Shown here: one piece after another, positions 2,457 through 11,999 of the stretch
Numbering within the stretch: the stretch's first letter is position 1
Layout: the number at the start of each line of letters is the position of its first letter
Origin: Candidatus Cloacimonadota bacterium
GTDB lineage: Bacteria; Cloacimonadota; Cloacimonadia; Cloacimonadales; Cloacimonadaceae
Direction of reading: 5' to 3'
Assembly: GCA_017994635.1 (NCBI GenBank)
Contig: JAGOKK010000006.1
Span: 1-49,676 of the forward strand
Length of the DNA: 49,676 nt
The notes under the pieces: model-generated
Told to the model about the DNA's origin: nothing
What the model saw: only the letters and a program-made list of their open reading frames with translations
The model's database searches: none
Translations under genes and position numbers: made by a program

Positions 2457-2494
2457 GCCACGATAAGGTTAAAGAAGGAATGAGAGGTGAGGAT

Positions 2495-2857
2495 ATGGAA
2501 CACAGGATTCTTCTCGTCGACGACGATCGGCTCCTGCGCGAAGTGATAGGTGAGTTCCTGAATTTAAACGGCTATCAGTATGATATGGCTGAAGATGCTG
2601 AGAAAGCCCTGGAGCAATTTGAACCCGGGAAATACGACTTGGCTCTGATTGATCTGGTAATGCCAGGCATGAACGGCATCGAACTCATGCAACGCTTTTT
2701 CGAACTCGATGCTGATTTGTTTTGCCTTATCATGACAGGCTATCCCACAATCGACAGCGCTTATAAATCCATGGTGGAAGGTGCTTCGGATTACATCATT
2801 AAACCCTTCCAACTCAGCGAGCTAATCACGGCCATCAGATTGCATTTGAAGCAATGA
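2495..2857 (+). CDS. Single-domain response regulator (CheY-like)
   Basis: A 120-residue receiver domain with nothing attached. It has the acidic triad DDD near residues 9-11, the phosphoacceptor Asp53 in IDLVMPGMNG, the switch Thr in MTGYP and the invariant Lys in IIKPF. Stand-alone receivers pass phosphoryl signals to partner proteins rather than binding DNA themselves. The ATG at 2495 is preferred over one 15 bases upstream because GAGGTGAGG precedes it at workable spacing, while the upstream ATG touches its would-be ribosome-binding site. The stop overlaps the next ATG (ATGA), so it is translationally coupled to the FemAB-like gene. No histidine kinase is adjacent; the partner kinase is elsewhere. 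Confidence 0.9.
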   Translation: MEHRILLVDDDRLLREVIGEFLNLNGYQYDMAEDAEKALEQFEPGKYDLALIDLVMPGMNGIELMQRFFELDADLFCLIMTGYPTIDSAYKSMVEGASDYIIKPFQLSELITAIRLHLKQ

Positions 2858-3780
2858 AACTCAGTATCCTGCTTGAAGAACCTGAAAGCTTGGATTTTAG
2901 ACCCGGAACAAGACGCTCTGGGGAGGCTTACGATCTTTGGTATAATCCTCATTTCATGTATGCCATCGCAAGCCTGCACGACATAAAACCGCTCCTACTC
3001 AGAGTATATAAGGGAGAGGAGCTGGTTGCTCTCTTGCCCCTCTATGAAAGAAAGAAACTATCATTAAAGGCTCTCGTCTGTCCGGTGGGAGCTTACTATC
3101 AGGGGTTGCATACTTTTTACCCTGCTGGAGCAGCCCCAAACCGGATGCTGCTAGACACAAACGCTATTTCAGAGGGGTTAGCGCTTTTTCTTTCTAAGCA
3201 TTATGGCAGGGTTCACTTCAAGCTAACTCCGCGAAATGCCGATGTGAGAGCCTTCACGCGAAACAAATACCACTCCACGCCCATGTATACTTTCACTTAT
3301 CCCACATCTTCCACGCTGCACATGCTGCCGGATGAAAAGAAGAAACTGCGCATTGCTGAGAAGAACGGGATGCAGATCGAAGAGAACTTCGATCCCGACA
3401 CCTTCATGAAGCTACAGCAATCCCTGGATAACCGCAAGAATCGCAGCTTGGGAACTGACCTGAAAGATCTGGGTAGGTTCTTTGAACGCCTGCATAATCA
3501 CGGGTTGTTGACGCAAATCAACGTTCTGCAAGGATCCCGAGTGGTGAGCAGCAATATTCTATATTACGACGGAGGTGAGATTGCCTATACTGTGTTTATG
3601 GCAAGTGAGGCCGCTGCGATGCAATTGGGTGTGTCCACTTTTCATAATGTGAAACTACTCTCTGCAATGCCAGAAGCCTGCCGGCTGTTGGATTACTGCG
3701 GAGCTAATGTACCCGAAGTGGCAAGATTTAAAGCTGCGTTGGGGCTAAACCTGCAAGTGTTTTACCACGTAAGCAGATAG
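2854..3780 (+). CDS. FemAB/BioF2-like GNAT acyltransferase
   Basis: A 308-residue protein that resembles the GNAT-fold family grouping FemAB peptidyltransferases and BioF2-like (Acetyltransf_6) proteins. Features seen are two tandem GNAT-like halves, a short basic helical segment (DEKKKLRIAEKNG) near residues 158-170, and the acceptor half at about 190-290 containing SLDNRKNRSLG and the strand-rich region around VVSSNILYYDGG. FemAB proteins add amino acids to peptidoglycan precursors from aminoacyl-tRNA; other members act on polysaccharides or lipids. Its position between a receiver domain and D-Ala-D-Ala ligase, with a 4-base overlap upstream and an 8-base gap downstream, suggests an envelope role. 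The substrate cannot be read from the sequence. There is no signal peptide, so it is cytoplasmic. Confidence 0.6.
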   Translation: MKLSILLEEPESLDFRPGTRRSGEAYDLWYNPHFMYAIASLHDIKPLLLRVYKGEELVALLPLYERKKLSLKALVCPVGAYYQGLHTFYPAGAAPNRMLLDTNAISEGLALFLSKHYGRVHFKLTPRNADVRAFTRNKYHSTPMYTFTYPTSSTLHMLPDEKKKLRIAEKNGMQIEENFDPDTFMKLQQSLDNRKNRSLGTDLKDLGRFFERLHNHGLLTQINVLQGSRVVSSNILYYDGGEIAYTVFMASEAAAMQLGVSTFHNVKLLSAMPEACRLLDYCGANVPEVARFKAALGLNLQVFYHVSR

Positions 3781-3788
3781 AGAGGAAA

Positions 3789-4742
3789 ATGGAAAATATC
3801 CTGGTTTTAAAAGGCGGAGATTCACCGGAACGGGAGGTATCCCTGGTCTCGGGGAGTGAAGTGGCTAAAGTGTTAGTAAATCTGGGATACAGGGTGTCTC
3901 AAATAGATCCCGCCGATTATCCTGATCTCCACTCACTTTTGATCGCCATCCGTAAGGAAAATTGCGATCTCATCTTCAATGCCCTGCACGGAGGTAGCGG
4001 GGAAAATGGTCAATTGGCGGCCGCACTGGAGATGGCTGGTATTCCCTTCACCGGATCCGGCAGTAAAGCGTCACAATTGGCAATGGACAAGTATATCTCC
4101 AAGCTCGTGGTTGGTGCAGAGGGATTACCTTTGAGTGGGCACATCCTGCTTCGAGCCAATCTTCTGGAAGACTACAATGATCCCATCGATTATAGCGGCA
4201 TCGTCCAAAGGCTAGGCTTGCCCCTGATCGTGAAACCAAATGACGCAGGCAGTTCGGTGGGCATCAGCATGGTGAAGTACATCGAGGATTTGAAGCCGGC
4301 GGTGGAGGAAGCTTTCAGGTTTTGCGATAGTGTTCTCCTGGAGGAGTACATTGAAGGCAGAGAACTGACGGTGAGTATCCTGGACGGCAAGGCATTACCT
4401 GTAGTGGAGATCCGTCCTCATGACGGCTGGTATGATTATCACAATAAATACACGAAGGGCAAAACCGATTACCTGGCTCCCGCACCAATTGACGAGGCTG
4501 TATCTGAGCTTTGCCAATTGTACGCCGAACGAGCCTTCTTCGCTCTATCATGTTCAGTCTATGGCAGAGTGGATTTTCGCCTGAGAGGCAACACCCCTTA
4601 CTTTTTGGAAGTTAACACGCTGCCGGGGATGACCTCGCTCAGCCTGGTTCCCATGGCAGCCAAAGCGGCAGGAATATCCTTTGAGGAACTGCTTCAATCT
4701 ATCATTAGATTATCTACAAACACAAAGGTGGAGGAATCATGA
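3789..4742 (+). CDS. ddl: D-alanine--D-alanine ligase
   Basis: A 317-residue ATP-grasp enzyme that joins two D-alanines for the end of the peptidoglycan stem peptide. Motifs seen in order are the N-terminal GGDSPEREVSLVSG, HGGSGENG at about 68-74, the ATP-binding loop KPNDAGSSVGIS at 149-160, EEYIEGRE at 185-192, and the metal-binding end LEVNTLPGMT at 273-282. Length is normal (300-370). It follows the FemAB-like gene by 8 bases and its stop overlaps the ATG of the next gene (ATGA), which ties cell-wall precursor synthesis to the secreted-protein cluster downstream. Acceptance of D-lactate instead of D-alanine at the second site cannot be excluded from sequence alone. Confidence 0.96.
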   Translation: MENILVLKGGDSPEREVSLVSGSEVAKVLVNLGYRVSQIDPADYPDLHSLLIAIRKENCDLIFNALHGGSGENGQLAAALEMAGIPFTGSGSKASQLAMDKYISKLVVGAEGLPLSGHILLRANLLEDYNDPIDYSGIVQRLGLPLIVKPNDAGSSVGISMVKYIEDLKPAVEEAFRFCDSVLLEEYIEGRELTVSILDGKALPVVEIRPHDGWYDYHNKYTKGKTDYLAPAPIDEAVSELCQLYAERAFFALSCSVYGRVDFRLRGNTPYFLEVNTLPGMTSLSLVPMAAKAAGISFEELLQSIIRLSTNTKVEES

Positions 4743-5833
4743 AACGCCTTACTTATATCTTCGTATTGTTGCTGATCAGCGGCGGGCTCTTTGCTCAGGG
4801 CTTCACCGTGAATTTCACCCCCAAGAGCCTGAAGGTGAATAAACTGGACGCGGTTGCCATAGATCCCATCAATCCTGATGCCCAACCGCACCTAACCACG
4901 CTGACTGTTAGCAACAGTCAGTCGGCACCCGCCAAAGCAGAATTACAAGTTCAAGTAAAATGGAACAGCACGTGGCTGGTCAAGGAAGGCGAGGCCATGC
5001 TGAGAACTGTGGATCCCATAGCTCCAAATGCTCCGCTTGTCATATCAAACCGCGACCTTCTAACAAATGTTGGAGGCTTTTACCTGGAATCAGATATGGA
5101 CATCGACATAGTGGATGCTGCCGAGGCCAATCCGCTTTTAAAAGAAGCCTTGCTAGCTGGATATTTCCCTGATGGCACACTGGAATTCCACGTATCCGTC
5201 AGAGCCCTTGGCAGCACTACTTGGGATGATAGTGATGTCTTCAAGCTGACCATAAAGAACGCCGGGGCCATATATCCAGTCAGTCCCGGTAAACACATCA
5301 ATCAAGTTCCTCCCTTGGCTACCAGTTTACCGCAAAGCTTCATCTGGAATGCTGTTGCCACCGGTTTCAACGATCAATATCTGGTGATCAAGGAATTTCC
5401 TCCCAGCCAAATTCCAAACTCCAATTCAGTTGAGACTAGCGGCTCAGTAGTGTATCGCAGTCCATCAGGTGTTCAGAGCGGATTTGCTGAATACATCCCC
5501 TTCAATAACGGCTGTTTCTATGCCTGGCAGGTTTACATGCCGCTTTTTGACGGCTTCAATCCGCTGGAGGAAGTAAAGGCTGACGATCCTGGCTTACTGA
5601 AGAGCCCCTGGTATGTATTTAAGTACGCTGAAGATGGAAACACGGGCGATGCTGATGAGATATCAGGACTCCTGAATGGGCTAAAAAACACTTTGATCCT
5701 GAACATCCTTATGCAAGGTTACAAGCCTACCGGCGAAGTCTGGTACAACGGACGCAGCTATAGTGGACAGGAAGCTCTTGATCTCATTGAAAGTCTGAGA
5801 GGCAAGAATTTTACGGTAGAGATCAAGGACTAA
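4739..5833 (+). CDS. Secreted protein of unknown function in the FecR/cyclase cluster
   Basis: A 364-residue protein that I do not recognise. It starts with a clear signal peptide (MKRLTYIFVLLLISGG then LFAQ) with likely cleavage after residue 19 or 20. The mature part is beta-rich. Residues 20-175 look like an immunoglobulin-like or P-pilus-assembly-like domain (paired VTVSN-type strands, LQVQVKW). The middle, about 180-295, looks like a second beta domain. The last 65 residues hold a short helical pair (GLLNGLKNTLILNIL; GQEALDLIESLRG). The ATG overlaps the ddl stop, and a 12-base gap with AGGGAGG leads into the FecR gene. The arrangement suggests a periplasmic or surface partner of the FecR and barrel proteins. 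No catalytic motif is visible. Confidence 0.6.
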   Translation: MKRLTYIFVLLLISGGLFAQGFTVNFTPKSLKVNKLDAVAIDPINPDAQPHLTTLTVSNSQSAPAKAELQVQVKWNSTWLVKEGEAMLRTVDPIAPNAPLVISNRDLLTNVGGFYLESDMDIDIVDAAEANPLLKEALLAGYFPDGTLEFHVSVRALGSTTWDDSDVFKLTIKNAGAIYPVSPGKHINQVPPLATSLPQSFIWNAVATGFNDQYLVIKEFPPSQIPNSNSVETSGSVVYRSPSGVQSGFAEYIPFNNGCFYAWQVYMPLFDGFNPLEEVKADDPGLLKSPWYVFKYAEDGNTGDADEISGLLNGLKNTLILNILMQGYKPTGEVWYNGRSYSGQEALDLIESLRGKNFTVEIKD

Positions 5834-5845
5834 AGGGAGGATGAA

Positions 5846-6523
5846 ATGAAAAAGCAACTAATTCTGATAACCATACTAATGCTTGTGGTGTGCCTCCTCG
5901 GTGCGGACGCCATTGCCATGCTCAGCGCCAATAAAGGCAAAGTAACTCTGGTCCGCGATAAATCCCAAATCAAGTTTCAAAAAGGGCAGTTGCTGATGAA
6001 TAACGATGTTATCCGCACTGGAGAGGAGAGCTTTGCCGCCTACAAATACGTCGATGCGTCATCCTCGGTGAAGATGTTTTCAAATAGCGTAGCCACCATC
6101 AGCGCCACCAAGGACGGCAAAGGGCTCAGCAAGAAGGTAACCGTGAGCAAAGGCAGTATCCTCTCTACAGTGAAGAAAGGTAGCGGCGTTTTTCAGGTAA
6201 GCACTCCCAGCACTGTGGCATCCGTGAAGGGTACTGATTTTTTGACCAAGGTCGAAGATGATGGTTCTTCCATGTTCATCGTAAATGATGGTGAGGTTGA
6301 GCTCCGCATGAGCTCCACTGGTGAAGTAACCAGCGTAGGCAAAGGGAAAACTGCCCGAGTGCAGAGTAGTGGCAGAGTAGAAGTACGAGACAGCCGCCCT
6401 GAAGACCTGAGCCCGGCGGAACGTCAGGAGATAGAATCCGAGGATAATAACGATTCCAATACCATCCGCATTCCTGTATTGGATAAAAACGGTAATCTCA
6501 AACAGATTGAGATCACTTTCTGA
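5846..6523 (+). CDS. Exported FecR-domain protein
   Basis: A 225-residue protein with a signal peptide (MKKQLILITILMLVVCLLGA). Residues about 27-150 match the FecR domain: GKVTLVRD, KGQLLMNNDVIRTG, a run of short beta strands, and the typical TPSTVASVKGTDF followed by VNDGEVEL. FecR domains sit in the periplasm and in other systems relay surface-receptor state to a sigma factor. Here there is no cytoplasmic N-terminal anti-sigma part and no membrane anchor beyond the signal peptide, so this is a stand-alone periplasmic FecR domain, the version often found next to CHASE2 cyclases. The tail (180-225) is acidic and polar. Its stop overlaps the preceding open frame of the barrel gene. A structural or sensory role is inferred. 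Confidence 0.8.
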   Translation: MKKQLILITILMLVVCLLGADAIAMLSANKGKVTLVRDKSQIKFQKGQLLMNNDVIRTGEESFAAYKYVDASSSVKMFSNSVATISATKDGKGLSKKVTVSKGSILSTVKKGSGVFQVSTPSTVASVKGTDFLTKVEDDGSSMFIVNDGEVELRMSSTGEVTSVGKGKTARVQSSGRVEVRDSRPEDLSPAERQEIESEDNNDSNTIRIPVLDKNGNLKQIEITF

Positions 6524-6540
6524 TGGTGGGGGACAGGCTT

Positions 6541-8922
6541 ATGAAGAAAATATTACTGATTATCCTGGCAACCCTAAGTCTCTCGCTCCTGGCGGCTGTG
6601 AACGCCATCCACGTGATGCCGAGTACTTATCTGCCGGGTGTCGATCTGGAGATGATGGTGGAAGTAACGCAGGGCAATGATGATATCAGTGCGGTAAAGA
6701 TGCAGTACCGGGTGTCTGGTGATAGCAAGTGGCTGGAAACCGACATGCGGCAGGATGAACCCGGCTTTTGGCGCGCTTCCATACCCCGCAGTTATTACAG
6801 TACCTCCGAAGTGGAGTATCGCTTCCAGTTTGAGCTACTAAGTGGTGTAAAGGAATATCTGCCAGATGAAAACTCACTGGATCAAGCTTATGCCATCGGC
6901 CCCATCGGAATGCAGGGCACTCAGGGTACGCACAGCGATGCTTTCGTTCTGCTCAGCGACGATAGCAGCATCAGCAGCGATGATGATTATCTCCTGGCCG
7001 TTAGTTACATAGCCATAGCAGATGAATTGGATCCCAATACTCTGCAAATCTTCGTGGATGACAGGGACGTTACCAAACTAGCAGAGAAAAGTGGCTCTAC
7101 CCTGGTGTACCGTGAAGAGAAGCCCCGGGAGGGGATCAAGAAAGCTCTCGTAAAGGCTGTGGTAAACGGCAAAGAGCTATATTCTGATACCTGGATTACC
7201 CAGGTAGTACCTGGTGAGGGTGGGTCCAAGTTGCCCATCAGTTTCAGGGGCTCTGTGAATATGTCTGCCAATTCCTATTCCACTTCCGACAAGGACGTGT
7301 CTTTTGGAAATACTCTCAGTGATTTCGCAGCCTGGACCGATCTATATGCCCAATACGGCATCCTGGATCTCAGCACAAATGTTTACGTTTCCAGCCTCGA
7401 AAAGACTAATGCCCAACCCGTGAATCGCTATACATTCGGGGTAGAGCTGCCCTTTATGGAAGCTTATTTGGGTGATTCATCTCCCCAGCTATCTGAATAT
7501 ACCATGAATGGTAAAAACATCCGCGGTATCTATTCCTCCATTGGCACTCGTTCTCTGAAGCTGTATCTCGCCCATGGTGAATCTGTTCGCATGACCAAAA
7601 ATGATGGCGATGGTAGCACTTCCAAAACGGGAACTTTCAAGCAGGAGGCCGCGGCAGTGCGTCTGGTGATGGGCAATGAGCAGGGATTTTCCCTGGGTCT
7701 TACCGGAACCAGGCATCGTGATGTACGCAGTTCTTTGGATTCCGAGTATTATGAATACATCAACCCCACTACCAACCTAAAAGAGTACAGCACGAAGGCT
7801 CAGGATAACGGTGTGGTAGCCGTGGATGCCAAGCTGAATGTGCCCGATCAGCATGTGTTGATGGGAGCCGAAGTGGCAGCTAGTTTGTTAAACAAGAACA
7901 CCCTGCCCGGTGCCATGTCTGAGGAAGACTTGCAGGAATACAGTGAGGATATCGATGTGAACCCTCAGGATGTTTCAGATTGGTTTATCATCAACCAGAA
8001 TATCGAGCCCTTTGGCCTTGATAAATCAAACATCGCATGGAAGGTTTATCTGCGTGCCTACATGATGAACAATATGATCACAGTGGATTATCAGGAAGTG
8101 GGCAGTTCCTTCACCGCTCTGGGAACTCATGCTCCACTCAGTGATTCCAGGATTGTCACTGTGACCGATCAGTTCAATCTAGGCAGAGCATTTCTGCTCA
8201 CGGGTTCCTACAGCCAGACTGTTGACAATCTGATGGAACATAGCACTGAAACTAACACCTACAGCAATCTGCAGGCACAGGCTATCCTGCGTTTGTCCAA
8301 GATGCCGTATCTGAAGGCTTCCCTCTTGCTAAACAACTCCGAGAATGAAGCCAATACTGAGATCGACAGCCTCGATTTCACGCCATATACTGGGGATAAT
8401 CAACAGCTGAGCTTCGGTATTGGTTATAACTTCATCCAGATCCCCTACGTACCGACACAGCTTGATCTCAGCTACCGCATGGGTGAAGACAGCAGGGAGA
8501 TCGGCAGCCCGGATGTCAGAGCCACTACCCTGGTCAGTGATAATGGCAATAGCGGCATCAATTTCAGCATGAGCAACCGTTTCCTGCCCATTCCGCTCAA
8601 GACATATCTGGCCTATTCCACCAGTTCAAACGAGAACAAGCTCCTGGATACTGAAACCCAGAATAGCAGAATCTACATGAAGGCCGAATACTCCCTGTTC
8701 AGCGACATTCTGAAGCCATATCTCGCCTTCAGCAATACCTCGCTTTCTGGAGATCAGGATGAGTCCTCCTACAGCATTACATCGCTTGGCCTCACAGCTT
8801 ATCCCATGCGCAATCTGAGTGTAAATACCGATCTCGCCTTAAAAAAGGTGAGTAACAAGGATAATAGCGCCGCCGAATACGACACTACCACCTGGCGCCT
8901 ATTGGTCAGCCAGAGATTCTAG
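6541..8922 (+). CDS. Large outer-membrane beta-barrel protein
   Basis: A 793-residue exported protein. The start is the ATG giving MKKILLIILATLSLSLLAA, a good signal peptide, preceded by GGGGGA at eight bases; an upstream in-frame ATG at 6523 would add six residues and spoil the signal. Residues 20-110 look like an immunoglobulin-like domain (MQYRVSGDSKWLETDM, FWRASIPRSYYS). A second small domain follows at about 140-225. From about 240 to the end the sequence alternates polar and hydrophobic residues in many short strands, as in outer-membrane barrels, and it ends in a terminal Phe (LLVSQRF), the signal used by the BAM complex. No TonB box or plug domain is seen. It sits between the FecR gene and the CHASE2 cyclase and could be the surface part of that sensory set. 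Confidence 0.72.
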   Translation: MKKILLIILATLSLSLLAAVNAIHVMPSTYLPGVDLEMMVEVTQGNDDISAVKMQYRVSGDSKWLETDMRQDEPGFWRASIPRSYYSTSEVEYRFQFELLSGVKEYLPDENSLDQAYAIGPIGMQGTQGTHSDAFVLLSDDSSISSDDDYLLAVSYIAIADELDPNTLQIFVDDRDVTKLAEKSGSTLVYREEKPREGIKKALVKAVVNGKELYSDTWITQVVPGEGGSKLPISFRGSVNMSANSYSTSDKDVSFGNTLSDFAAWTDLYAQYGILDLSTNVYVSSLEKTNAQPVNRYTFGVELPFMEAYLGDSSPQLSEYTMNGKNIRGIYSSIGTRSLKLYLAHGESVRMTKNDGDGSTSKTGTFKQEAAAVRLVMGNEQGFSLGLTGTRHRDVRSSLDSEYYEYINPTTNLKEYSTKAQDNGVVAVDAKLNVPDQHVLMGAEVAASLLNKNTLPGAMSEEDLQEYSEDIDVNPQDVSDWFIINQNIEPFGLDKSNIAWKVYLRAYMMNNMITVDYQEVGSSFTALGTHAPLSDSRIVTVTDQFNLGRAFLLTGSYSQTVDNLMEHSTETNTYSNLQAQAILRLSKMPYLKASLLLNNSENEANTEIDSLDFTPYTGDNQQLSFGIGYNFIQIPYVPTQLDLSYRMGEDSREIGSPDVRATTLVSDNGNSGINFSMSNRFLPIPLKTYLAYSTSSNENKLLDTETQNSRIYMKAEYSLFSDILKPYLAFSNTSLSGDQDESSYSITSLGLTAYPMRNLSVNTDLALKKVSNKDNSAAEYDTTTWRLLVSQRF

Positions 8923-8960
8923 CTAAAGTCTGCCCCCGGCTGCGACCAACAATTAGTATG

Positions 8961-8986
8961 CCGTGCAGCAGCCAAATGCTGCACGG
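8961..8986 (+). terminator. Strong hairpin between barrel gene and cyclase
   Basis: A perfect 10-bp stem (CCGTGCAGCA/TGCTGCACGG) with a 6-base loop lies 38 bases after the barrel gene stop and 23 before the cyclase start. It is followed by CTCATTTACT, so there is no good U tract. It may act as a transcript-stabilising or partially terminating element that sets lower expression of the cyclase. Confidence 0.55.
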
Positions 8987-9008
8987 CTCATTTACTTCGG
9001 AGTAGATT

Positions 9009-10865
9009 ATGCGAGCTTTACGCCCTTACCTTTGGCCCATACTCATATTGCTAATCGTGCGAATCCTATTCCTCTTTCCTTTTTTCCACGCATTGGATTA
9101 CAAGGCACAGGATAGTTTGTTTCGCTTGCGGGGAGCGCAAGAGATCAGCAACGACATAGTGATTATCACTATCGATGATGCTACCGATAGTGCTCTGGAT
9201 ACCCGCTGGCCCTATCCCCGAGAGTACCATGCGAAACTGATCGAGAATCTTTTTAAACTGGGCGTGAAGCAAGTGATCTTCGACGTCGCCTTTACCGAGT
9301 CTGCCATCGCCGAAAGTGACGCTCTGCTGGCCGATACCGCTTTCTACTATCAGAATACCATCTTCGCCGGAAAAGTGATCCCAGCCCCAAGCAAGGGAGA
9401 GCCGTCCCGGGTGCAGACCCCGATCAAACCCATTCGAGATCGCGATCTGAGCTGGGGCATTGTAAATATTTCCCCAGATACCGATAACGTGATCCGTAGC
9501 TATTCACTGTTTGAAATGCATGATGATAGCCCCTATTACAGCATCGGCGTGGCCGCATTGGGCAATTCACGCATCTATCAGCCAGAATGGAGCAAACACA
9601 TCGGCAGAGTGGGGGGTAAACTCTCGGTGGCTGGCAATTTGATCCCTATCACTGCAGCAAATCGTGCTTTGATCAATTATTTCGGCCCCGCTGGCTATTT
9701 TCCCTTTGTTTCCTATGCCAGCGTCCTGGACGATTCCACTACGGCTATGCCTGGCTATTATGGCGAGGAACTGGACGAGTACTATGAACTGGAAGAATAC
9801 GGTTTGTTGCAGGGCAAGACGGTGCTCATCGGAGCCACGATGGACGAATTGCACGATAAGTTTCCTACGCCCTTTGGCGGCGAATGGACTCCGGGGGTGG
9901 AGATTCATGCCAATTTCATGGAAATGGTGATGCAGGGAAACTATCTAAGAGCATTCCCAGCCTGGTACTATCTTGGCTTTGAACTGCTGCTCTTGCTGGG
10001 CTTCTGGTTAGTTTTCCGGCATGTCCGTCCGCAGCTATCGGCCGTTATCCTGGTTCTTTTGATCGTGGGTCAGTATGCTGCTGCGTTCATTCTTTTCAAA
10101 TACCATAGCCTGCTGATTCCAATAGTGCAGACAGCTTTTGCCTATGTGCTTCTGTATGTACTCAGCCTGGTGTTGCATTATCTGGCGTCGCTCAAGGAAA
10201 AGAAATTTATCCGCAATACTTTCCAGCAGTATATGGCTCCGGAACTGGTGAATGAACTGCTGAAAAATCCCGGTAAGCTTAGCTATGGCGGAACCTATCA
10301 GGAGATTTCTGTGTTGTTTTCAGACATTCGTTCTTTCACCACCTATTCTGAGGGGCACTCGCCAGCAGAAACGGTAAACATTCTCAAAGAATATCTTACG
10401 GCGATGGTGGATGTGATCATCAAAAACAATGGCACTCTAGATAAGTTTGTCGGCGACGAGATCATGGCTCTTTATGGCAGCCCTTTGCCTTTGGAAAACC
10501 ACGCCCTTCACGCCTGTAAAACCGCTCTGGAGATGCGTGAACGGTTAGGCGTACTTCAAGAGAAATGGCGCAAGGATGGCAAGGAAGGTTTTGAGATCGG
10601 CATTGGGGTAAACACTGGCGGAGCCATCGTGGGTAACCTCGGTAGTGAGCAGATATTTGATTACACAGCCATTGGCGATACTATCAATCTGGGCGCACGT
10701 CTGGAAGGCATCAACAAGGAGTATGACACTGCCAAACACATCATCATCAGCGAGTTTACTTACGCCCAGGTAAAAGACTACGTTCAGGTGCGCTATCTGG
10801 ATGAGGTGAAAGTAAAAGGCAAGAATCTGGCTGTCAAGATCTATGAGCTACAGGGTTTGAAATAG
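9009..10865 (+). CDS. CHASE2-domain class III adenylate cyclase
   Basis: A 618-residue membrane cyclase. An N-terminal membrane helix (about 7-27) is followed by an extracytoplasmic CHASE2 sensor (about 30-315; DIVIITIDDATD, FDVAFTE, LIGATMDE and TPGVEIHANFM are typical), then three membrane helices (about 320-392) and a C-terminal class III cyclase domain (about 428-610). The two metal-binding aspartates are Asp439 (FSDIRSF) and Asp483 (FVGDEIMALYG). The adenine-selecting pair is Lys479 and Thr553 (DYTAIGDTIN). Asn560 and Arg564 complete the active site. All catalytic residues are present, so active cAMP synthesis is expected. The preceding genes encode FecR and barrel proteins, which could feed a periplasmic signal to CHASE2. 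No cAMP receptor gene is in the window. Confidence 0.93.
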   Translation: MRALRPYLWPILILLIVRILFLFPFFHALDYKAQDSLFRLRGAQEISNDIVIITIDDATDSALDTRWPYPREYHAKLIENLFKLGVKQVIFDVAFTESAIAESDALLADTAFYYQNTIFAGKVIPAPSKGEPSRVQTPIKPIRDRDLSWGIVNISPDTDNVIRSYSLFEMHDDSPYYSIGVAALGNSRIYQPEWSKHIGRVGGKLSVAGNLIPITAANRALINYFGPAGYFPFVSYASVLDDSTTAMPGYYGEELDEYYELEEYGLLQGKTVLIGATMDELHDKFPTPFGGEWTPGVEIHANFMEMVMQGNYLRAFPAWYYLGFELLLLLGFWLVFRHVRPQLSAVILVLLIVGQYAAAFILFKYHSLLIPIVQTAFAYVLLYVLSLVLHYLASLKEKKFIRNTFQQYMAPELVNELLKNPGKLSYGGTYQEISVLFSDIRSFTTYSEGHSPAETVNILKEYLTAMVDVIIKNNGTLDKFVGDEIMALYGSPLPLENHALHACKTALEMRERLGVLQEKWRKDGKEGFEIGIGVNTGGAIVGNLGSEQIFDYTAIGDTINLGARLEGINKEYDTAKHIIISEFTYAQVKDYVQVRYLDEVKVKGKNLAVKIYELQGLK

Positions 10866-10886
10866 CTACCAGTACCGATCTTTTTC

Positions 10887-11573
10887 TCAGCTTTGGGTGA
10901 TCGGATCCAGGAGATGCAGAATGTGGCTGTTGTCCCTGAGCCAGGCATAGTGAATCCGGTAATCCGGGACGATCATTTCCACGCTCTTCCAAAATGCCTT
11001 AGAGTGATTAGGATGCAGGCTGTGGCAGTATTCATGTACGATCACGTAGTCGATCACCTCCGGGGGCGCCATGATCAGCGCGCAATTCAGAGATAATGAC
11101 ATCCGGGATGAATACGAGCCCCACCGCCGTTTATTCCATCGTGTGCTGACCTTTACTTTTATAAAGTGGTGTTGGACAGCGAGTTCATGACAGCGTTTGA
11201 TCAGGTATTTGGCCCTTTCCTGATAAAAGTCCTTCATCACGATGTCCAACTGATTGACGTAATCCTTGTTGATGTAAAGCGTGGACATGGCTAGACGCCA
11301 GAGATAGGGACAGTTTTCCATGTACTGTAGCGTGATGGGCTTGCCCATCAAGGGAATGCTGGAACCCTCAGTAAAGCTGTGTTGCCGATGATTTCTTCGG
11401 TAGTTGTCCAGTAAAGCCTGGATGCGATCATCGCGTTTCTGGAGGAGCTGAAAAATGTAATCATCAGTGGTTCCCAAGGGAGCCCGTACTTGGATGATCT
11501 CGTTTGCCAAAATCCTGATCAGGATACTCTTGCGGTTTGTGCGGACAATCGTTACTTTCTCAGGATTCATCAT
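10887..11573 (-). CDS. YgjP-like (DUF45) zinc metallopeptidase
   Basis: A 228-residue protein of the YgjP/DUF45 family. The zinc site is visible: HEYCH at 180-184 (HExxH form) followed by HPNHSKAFW, where His190 is the likely third ligand. The upstream RWNKRRWGSYSS stretch is also typical of the family. Members are soluble gluzincin-like proteins, some fused to nucleases, and the physiological substrate is not established. Length is normal (about 230). The start overlaps the end of the ArsC-like gene by 14 bases, so the pair is probably one transcription unit and translationally coupled, since no ribosome-binding site is seen. Confidence 0.88.
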   Translation of the reverse strand: MMNPEKVTIVRTNRKSILIRILANEIIQVRAPLGTTDDYIFQLLQKRDDRIQALLDNYRRNHRQHSFTEGSSIPLMGKPITLQYMENCPYLWRLAMSTLYINKDYVNQLDIVMKDFYQERAKYLIKRCHELAVQHHFIKVKVSTRWNKRRWGSYSSRMSLSLNCALIMAPPEVIDYVIVHEYCHSLHPNHSKAFWKSVEMIVPDYRIHYAWLRDNSHILHLLDPITQS

Positions 11574-11985
11574 CTATGTTCAGGAGAGGTAAAAGCTGCT
11601 CGATGATTGCGCTCCGCACTTCGCGAAAGCCCTTCATTGCTTCCTGCAAATTGTCGGCCTGGTAGTTCACAGGGTCAGGAAGGCTAAGATGAAGTTGCTT
11701 TACTGGCTTGTAAAAGGTCGGGCATCTCCTGGACGCGTAGTTACAGACTGTGATGATCAAGTCGAGGTCTTCGCGATGCCAATACTCTGAGATTGATTCG
11801 CTTTTCAGGTAGCCAGTCTCGATTCCCATTTCCTGTAAAGCTTTTAGAGCATAGGGATGCGGGTGCGAGGGATGGGTCCCCGCAGAATAGGCTATCCAGG
11901 TATCCTTTAGATAGTGGTTTATCAAGCCTTCAGCCATGATGCTGCGGCAGGAATTTCCTGTGCAAATTACCAGTACTTTCTTCAT
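11560..11985 (-). CDS. Thioredoxin-coupled ArsC-type arsenate reductase / LMW phosphatase family
   Basis: A 141-residue low-molecular-weight phosphatase-fold protein. The phosphate loop is CTGNSCRS (Cys8, Arg14; CX5R). Unlike plain tyrosine phosphatases it also has Cys81 and Cys88 (VCNYASRRCP), matching the Cys10/Cys82/Cys89 relay of Staphylococcus aureus ArsC that passes the disulfide to thioredoxin. The general-acid region is reduced to LPDP (104-105). These residues favour arsenate reductase over tyrosine phosphatase. No arsR, arsB or acr3 gene is adjacent; its partner is the metallopeptidase gene. The ATG at 11985 is chosen because it puts the P-loop at the usual distance; an in-frame ATG four codons upstream is possible. 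Confidence 0.82.
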   Translation of the reverse strand: MKKVLVICTGNSCRSIMAEGLINHYLKDTWIAYSAGTHPSHPHPYALKALQEMGIETGYLKSESISEYWHREDLDLIITVCNYASRRCPTFYKPVKQLHLSLPDPVNYQADNLQEAMKGFREVRSAIIEQLLPLLNIDDES

Positions 11986-11999
11986 ATTTTGTCCCATTA

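Follow-up and report, generated by a model that had tools for sequence, protein, structure and literature searches.

Four consecutive genes in a 49,676-nucleotide stretch of a Candidatus Cloacimonadota bacterium genome (contig JAGOKK010000006.1, positions 1–49,676, forward strand; hereafter ‘the window’) encode an exported protein (A), a free periplasmic FecR-domain protein, an outer-membrane barrel and a CHASE2 adenylate cyclase, and probably form an envelope-to-cytoplasm relay, a split-gene variant of the NsrA–CyaK system of Sinorhizobium meliloti. A first-pass annotation, made from the sequence alone, had placed these four genes in one row on the same strand and proposed that they sense an outer-membrane or surface state and convert it to cyclic AMP (cAMP). 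The genes were found as described, and the proposed relay has gained an experimentally studied relative in NsrA–CyaK (PMC7529298, PMC13001267), while its description as a new kind of system has not stood, as such clusters have already been reported. CHASE2 is widespread and its input is not agreed; co-location with FecR points to what it may detect. The row of ddl, A, FecR, barrel and cyclase lies entirely on the + strand (open reading frame (ORF) calls and Pfam), its central features being:

4739..5833, + strand: gene A, exported protein of 364 amino acids (aa); ORF, no Pfam match
5846..6523, + strand: free periplasmic FecR-domain protein, 225 aa; PF04773, 6.8e-11
6203..6235, + strand: FecR signature TPSTVASVKGT, aa 120–130; near-invariant in cyclase-bearing loci
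6541..8922 (alternative start 6523), + strand: outer-membrane barrel; AlphaFold, Foldseek and alignment
8960..8987, + strand: perfect 11-bp hairpin in the barrel–cyclase gap; inverted repeat, unique in the window
9009..10865, + strand: CHASE2 adenylate cyclase; PF05226, 3.8e-48, and PF00211 (Guanylate_cyc), 3.2e-23

The arrangement is conserved across Cloacimonadota. In a sample of 118 genomes, CHASE2 was detected in 93 and FecR in 92, and 56/93 short CHASE2 cyclases had a FecR gene within 8 kb on the same contig. These FecR genes were without exception on the same strand as the cyclase (56/56), and 55/56 lay 2.56–3.13 kb upstream, a distance that leaves room for one barrel gene; with most genomes carrying a single short FecR gene, chance could hardly account for this order. 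In 40 loci that were fetched and their genes called, the succession A, FecR, barrel, cyclase was recovered for almost all loci of this type, with A–FecR and FecR–barrel gaps mostly <20 bases. Short cyclase and short FecR were both present in 78 genomes, one without the other in 7 and 8, and both absent from 25 (Fisher p 1e-12, relatedness ignored). The four families therefore do stay together through the phylum, as the relay of the first-pass annotation requires, and it is not the rule that the barrel and A belong to an unrelated conserved pair, with exceptions in both respects.

FecR genes also stand beside CHASE2 genes in other phyla. A blind tblastn search of plasmid records with the window FecR matched NsrA (~4e-3 to 6e-3), whose gene immediately precedes cyaK; the window cyclase matched CyaK at ~1e-45 over 89% of the cyclase; in a profile comparison, the FecR domain matched that of NsrA with E 1.1e-8 (hhalign, 23% identity, 137 columns). 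Among plasmid loci, FecR was immediately upstream of a CHASE2 cyclase in Methylocystis and Rhizobium, of a CHASE2 histidine kinase in Paraburkholderia and Eleftheria (kinase output assigned from position beside a response regulator and from the published operon type), and of a CHASE2–EAL protein on a plasmid of R. leguminosarum. CHASE2 was present in 117/199 sampled Pseudomonadota genomes; the Pfam FecR list for that phylum was not used, its listed matches being led by sigma-regulator-like FecR, and 60 loci from 60 genomes were sampled instead. FecR occurred within ~6 kb of CHASE2 in 35/60 of these, mostly directly adjacent, compared with 0/20 control windows taken 200 kb away. Outputs in nine scanned examples included cyclase, kinase, hybrid kinase and GGDEF–EAL, and some FecR partners carried LysM or laminin-type domains. 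On a tree of 109 CHASE2 sequences, FecR adjacency required 16 changes, compared with 33.7 when shuffled, and 0/500 shuffles were as low. Because the pairing spans different outputs and fits the tree, it follows the sensor rather than the output, and FecR looks like a partner of CHASE2 itself. Searches with a CHASE2 consensus sequence as query returned mostly Cloacimonadota.

The window FecR protein, the sole Pfam FecR of its source genome, consists of a signal peptide, a FecR domain (~aa 24–159; Pfam 54–152) and a conserved C-terminal strand; it is exported as a free domain and lacks an anti-sigma part, and sequence search returned no solved relative. Gene A was modelled as tandem immunoglobulin (Ig)-like beta-sandwich domains followed by a small C-terminal alpha/beta segment (AlphaFold predicted local distance difference test (pLDDT) 75.7), for which Foldseek returned generic, unspecific Ig/Fn3-type matches and hence no specific fold assignment. 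An orthologue of A occurs at the corresponding position in almost all type I loci of Cloacimonadota, and none was seen in the CHASE2 loci fetched from other phyla, so that A appears, as far as tested, to be specific to the Cloacimonadota locus. A and FecR each end in a conserved strand (GKxIxVEIxD and GNxKYIEITY/F respectively; window 5800–5830 and 6485–6520), which may be a signal for assembly or strand donation. The barrel was modelled with about 26 strands (aa 234–792) and a C-terminal F (pLDDT 75.1, predicted template modelling score (pTM) 0.52), preceded by a signal peptide and an Ig-like periplasmic region at ~aa 20–225. Its Foldseek matches, of which the best (E 1.8e-9) was chain B of an Mtr complex, followed by TonB receptors and ushers, are outer-membrane barrels in general, and Pfam gave no match to it, TonB, plug and STN included. 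The cyclase comprises CHASE2 (aa 14–332) and a catalytic domain (aa 429–614). The first-pass annotation had credited it with every catalytic residue, and all six are present: metal D439/D483, purine K479/D551 and transition-state N560/R564, each conserved in 45–49 of 49 homologues. The solved structures closest to it are those of adenylate cyclases, CyaB among them, and, K479/D551 being an adenine-type pair, cAMP is the predicted product.

In the proposed relay, the barrel would lie in the outer membrane, its Ig-like N-terminal region and protein A both being on its periplasmic side; the free periplasmic FecR would read the state of this barrel–A assembly and bind the CHASE2 ectodomain of the inner-membrane cyclase, upon which cAMP synthesis would change. 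Contact between FecR and CHASE2 is presumed to be direct, the roles given to A and the barrel are putative, and the signal would be a surface or outer-membrane state.

Gene losses bear on this relay in both directions. In four genomes of genus g3 that have no cyclase (G002, G022, G031, with one marginal CHASE2 match, and G047), A, FecR and barrel were absent too. Three others of g3 (G037, G042 and G048) retained A, FecR and barrel (the ‘trio’) at the native ddl locus and no CHASE2 gene was found, while G090 has a native trio with no cyclase adjoining it, plus a further set elsewhere that is intact and includes a cyclase. In the four native cyclase-less copies the FecR core TP[ST]TVASVKGT, near-invariant where the cyclase is present, has been destroyed, with 3/36 conserved positions kept, compared with 89/136 elsewhere in FecR.

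Several observations weigh against the relay. The four eroded copies form one clade on the barrel tree (support 100) and thus represent a single evolutionary event, and a further genome, G036, has a trio with an intact FecR motif and no CHASE2 found (in an assembly of ~500 contigs). Conversely, G019, G049 and G009 have a cyclase without the trio, and CHASE2 in these keeps 40–41/42 conserved positions, so that the reciprocal erosion test failed. Trio and cyclase occupy separate loci in G028 and in family f12, with ddl beside one or the other. Approximately 40% of the sampled Pseudomonadota CHASE2 loci have no FecR nearby, as is true of nearly all of the few loci from other phyla outside Cloacimonadota. 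Profile comparison revealed no sequence relation between A and NsrA and no match between the barrel and NsrA, although in the latter case NsrA was represented by one sequence only and barrels are quick to diverge. Moreover, the FecR protein SMc02177 of S. meliloti was not needed for signal perception (PMC5498481).

Alternatively, A, FecR and barrel may be an outer-membrane structure or export assembly of their own and the cyclase a co-expressed, non-contacting neighbour retained by ddl synteny. Trios without cyclase (G037, G042, G048 and G036), the cyclases that stay with ddl and have no trio (G019 and G049), and the position of ddl at the head of most loci all favour such an assembly. We nevertheless consider it unlikely, because FecR–CHASE2 pairs recur in other phyla without ddl, A or a barrel homologue, because the FecR core motif has been lost where the adjoining cyclase is gone, and because all four genes are co-absent from the four g3 genomes named above. 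It is more doubtful still that CHASE2 senses a small ligand of its own, with FecR an accessory or delivery component such as a tether to the wall or outer membrane: the lack of an agreed CHASE2 ligand, the many CHASE2 genes without FecR nearby, the conserved CHASE2 of trio-less cyclases and the LysM or laminin-type domains of some FecR partners would suit it, but FecR pairing tracks the CHASE2 tree and not the output domain, and genetics show that signalling through CyaK depends on NsrA (PMC7529298). Regulation of the FecI/FecR/FecA sigma type, suggested by the co-location of FecR domain and barrel, is very improbable given a FecR that is exported, free and devoid of an anti-sigma part, a barrel with no TonB, plug or STN match, and no Pfam sigma-factor match in the scan of neighbouring genes, which covered 2480–11997.

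The envelope-to-cytoplasm relay is therefore preferred, and it invites a tentative generalisation, plausible though still short of probable: that in many of its families CHASE2 acts as a receptor whose ligand is not a small molecule but a FecR domain, by way of the surface around TPxxVxxV(K/R)GTxF, possibly with ESFAA. Different bacteria would join this module to a barrel, to a LysM domain that binds the wall or to a surface adhesin, and a single sensor fold could in this way read many envelope states into cAMP, cyclic di-GMP or phosphorylation. In the classical FecA–FecR pair, a barrel speaks to a FecR domain and the target is a sigma factor; if the relay is true, FecR extends beyond sigma-factor control and outer-membrane barrels are linked to second messengers. 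The compact row, with its free 225-aa FecR, offers a convenient test of FecR as CHASE2 input because each part is a separate protein, and the natural loss series within one genus (cyclase lost, FecR motif gone, rest kept) singles out residues of interest.

Spacing within the row is tight, as first annotated, in the 12-base A–FecR gap; an overlap claimed between FecR and barrel is the less likely reading. ATG 6541 is the more probable start of the barrel, leaving a gap of 17 bases, because GGGGG lies upstream of this codon, the signal peptide begins there and orthologues mostly have gaps of 6–19 bases. The barrel stop is 86 bases from the cyclase, and the hairpin reported before the cyclase is indeed present, with 11 pairs and a weakly T-rich tail. 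It is possibly an attenuator or weak terminator, although not convincing as a terminator. In six related loci the barrel–cyclase gap is 1–7 bases, and this, with the weakly T-rich tail, makes one transcript across barrel and cyclase the likelier ancestral state. Two genes stand ahead of the four:

3789..4742, + strand: ddl, D-Ala-D-Ala ligase; PF07478, 1.8e-52; 4-base overlap with A
2480..2857, + strand: stand-alone receiver domain at the head of the row; PF00072, 2.1e-27

The overlap of ddl with A had been taken to indicate coupling to wall synthesis. This was rejected as evidence: ddl heads most Cloacimonadota loci of this type and, after a locus has split, stays with either half, whereas 0/60 Pseudomonadota CHASE2 loci have it. 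Its presence is therefore inherited synteny in the phylum, and ddl is judged an ancestral neighbour, not part of the relay. The receiver gene, with a strong promoter-like site 5′ of it (2429–2456), accompanies ddl, A, FecR and barrel in related loci of the family, and is possibly a downstream element of the relay.

As to where cAMP might act, the source genome (92% complete) encodes three proteins with a cyclic nucleotide monophosphate (cNMP) domain, one of them a histidine kinase; none of the three matched a DNA-binding family in Pfam, and at that completeness no receptor of CRP type was detected. The kinase (L208:736–1845, G000 contig C92) is cytoplasmic, with the cNMP-binding domain fused to it, and is, rather than a CRP, a candidate cAMP receiver here. 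A path from cAMP through this kinase to the stand-alone receiver is speculation.

Related genes were observed elsewhere. A second CHASE2 cyclase of the source genome (L064:5258–12640, G000 contig C22) overlaps a gene for a 221-aa exported FecR-like/TPR protein and follows a 1517-aa protein with beta-propeller-type and TPR matches; L065 and L066 have the same set. The FecR-like gene is degenerate and was identified by visual inspection and, in a relative, by a marginal profile match; its overlap with a CHASE2 cyclase counts in favour of the relay. In L067–L070, a CHASE2 cyclase of another Cloacimonadota type is followed by related exported proteins of 400–430 aa, of which that of L067 was scanned and proved to be an SH3-domain M48 peptidase. 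Long (~700 aa) Cloacimonadota proteins with an N-terminal FecR lie away from CHASE2 (L080–L082), and the one scanned had no other convincing Pfam match. In G010 (L058, L109) the barrel is missing from an A–FecR–cyclase locus and was not found in the genome; FecR and cyclase adjoin there even so. In G036, a FapA-like gene follows the barrel. A divergent gene for a PycTM/DUF5706 Pycsar-type membrane effector stands beside nsrA–cyaK in Sinorhizobium and Rhizobium (L084:3537–4082, L088:3447–3986), a cyclic-nucleotide effector adjoining a receptor cyclase.

FecR–CHASE2 clusters have been reported before from Sinorhizobium, Campylobacterota and Burkholderia; a statement that FecR is a general CHASE2 partner was not found in a literature search that lacked most subscription papers. 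In the Burkholderia BiofilmReg operon (PMC5192318), a FecR-domain periplasmic protein likewise adjoins a CHASE2 sensor, but a histidine kinase with a response regulator forms the output, FecR carries a LysM fusion and there is no barrel gene, whereas the window row has a cyclase output and no LysM match in Pfam. In magnetotactic bacteria, MtxA, a periplasmic Ig-like/TPR protein, is similarly encoded upstream of a CHASE2 cyclase, although the authors recognised no FecR there (PMC4439547). The Campylobacterota clusters (PMC9239204) share a CHASE2 cyclase and a FecR-domain outer-membrane protein, from which the authors infer one pathway; they differ in a cAMP phosphodiesterase and a TPR protein, neither of which was matched among the scanned window genes. 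A working model of cAMP-enzyme inhibition, from the NsrA paper, is cited in PMC9239204. Closest is NsrA–CyaK itself, for which published genetics assign NsrA to the outer membrane, with CyaK acting after it in signal-driven synthesis of cAMP (PMC7529298, PMC13001267), the signal-driven response requiring both (PMC7529298). The external signal that characterises that system is a protein, uL2. NsrA is a FecR–TPR–barrel protein in a single chain of 1190 aa, whose barrel portion is described in PMC7529298. Both systems have a FecR domain with an outer-membrane barrel and, directly downstream, a CHASE2 class III adenylate cyclase, FecR and cyclase being the sole parts recognisably homologous; in the window, however, FecR and barrel each have a gene to themselves, there is no TPR and protein A is added. 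In NsrA–CyaK, cAMP acts through Clr, a CRP-type regulator; none of that type was found in the 92%-complete source genome. The window set is not filed as a member of NsrA–CyaK, because it lacks the single-chain FecR–TPR–barrel architecture. Judged from its sequence, it is a split-gene variant with a phylum-specific A and a barrel that is unrelated or unrecognisably diverged and, by analogy, it probably works as NsrA–CyaK does.

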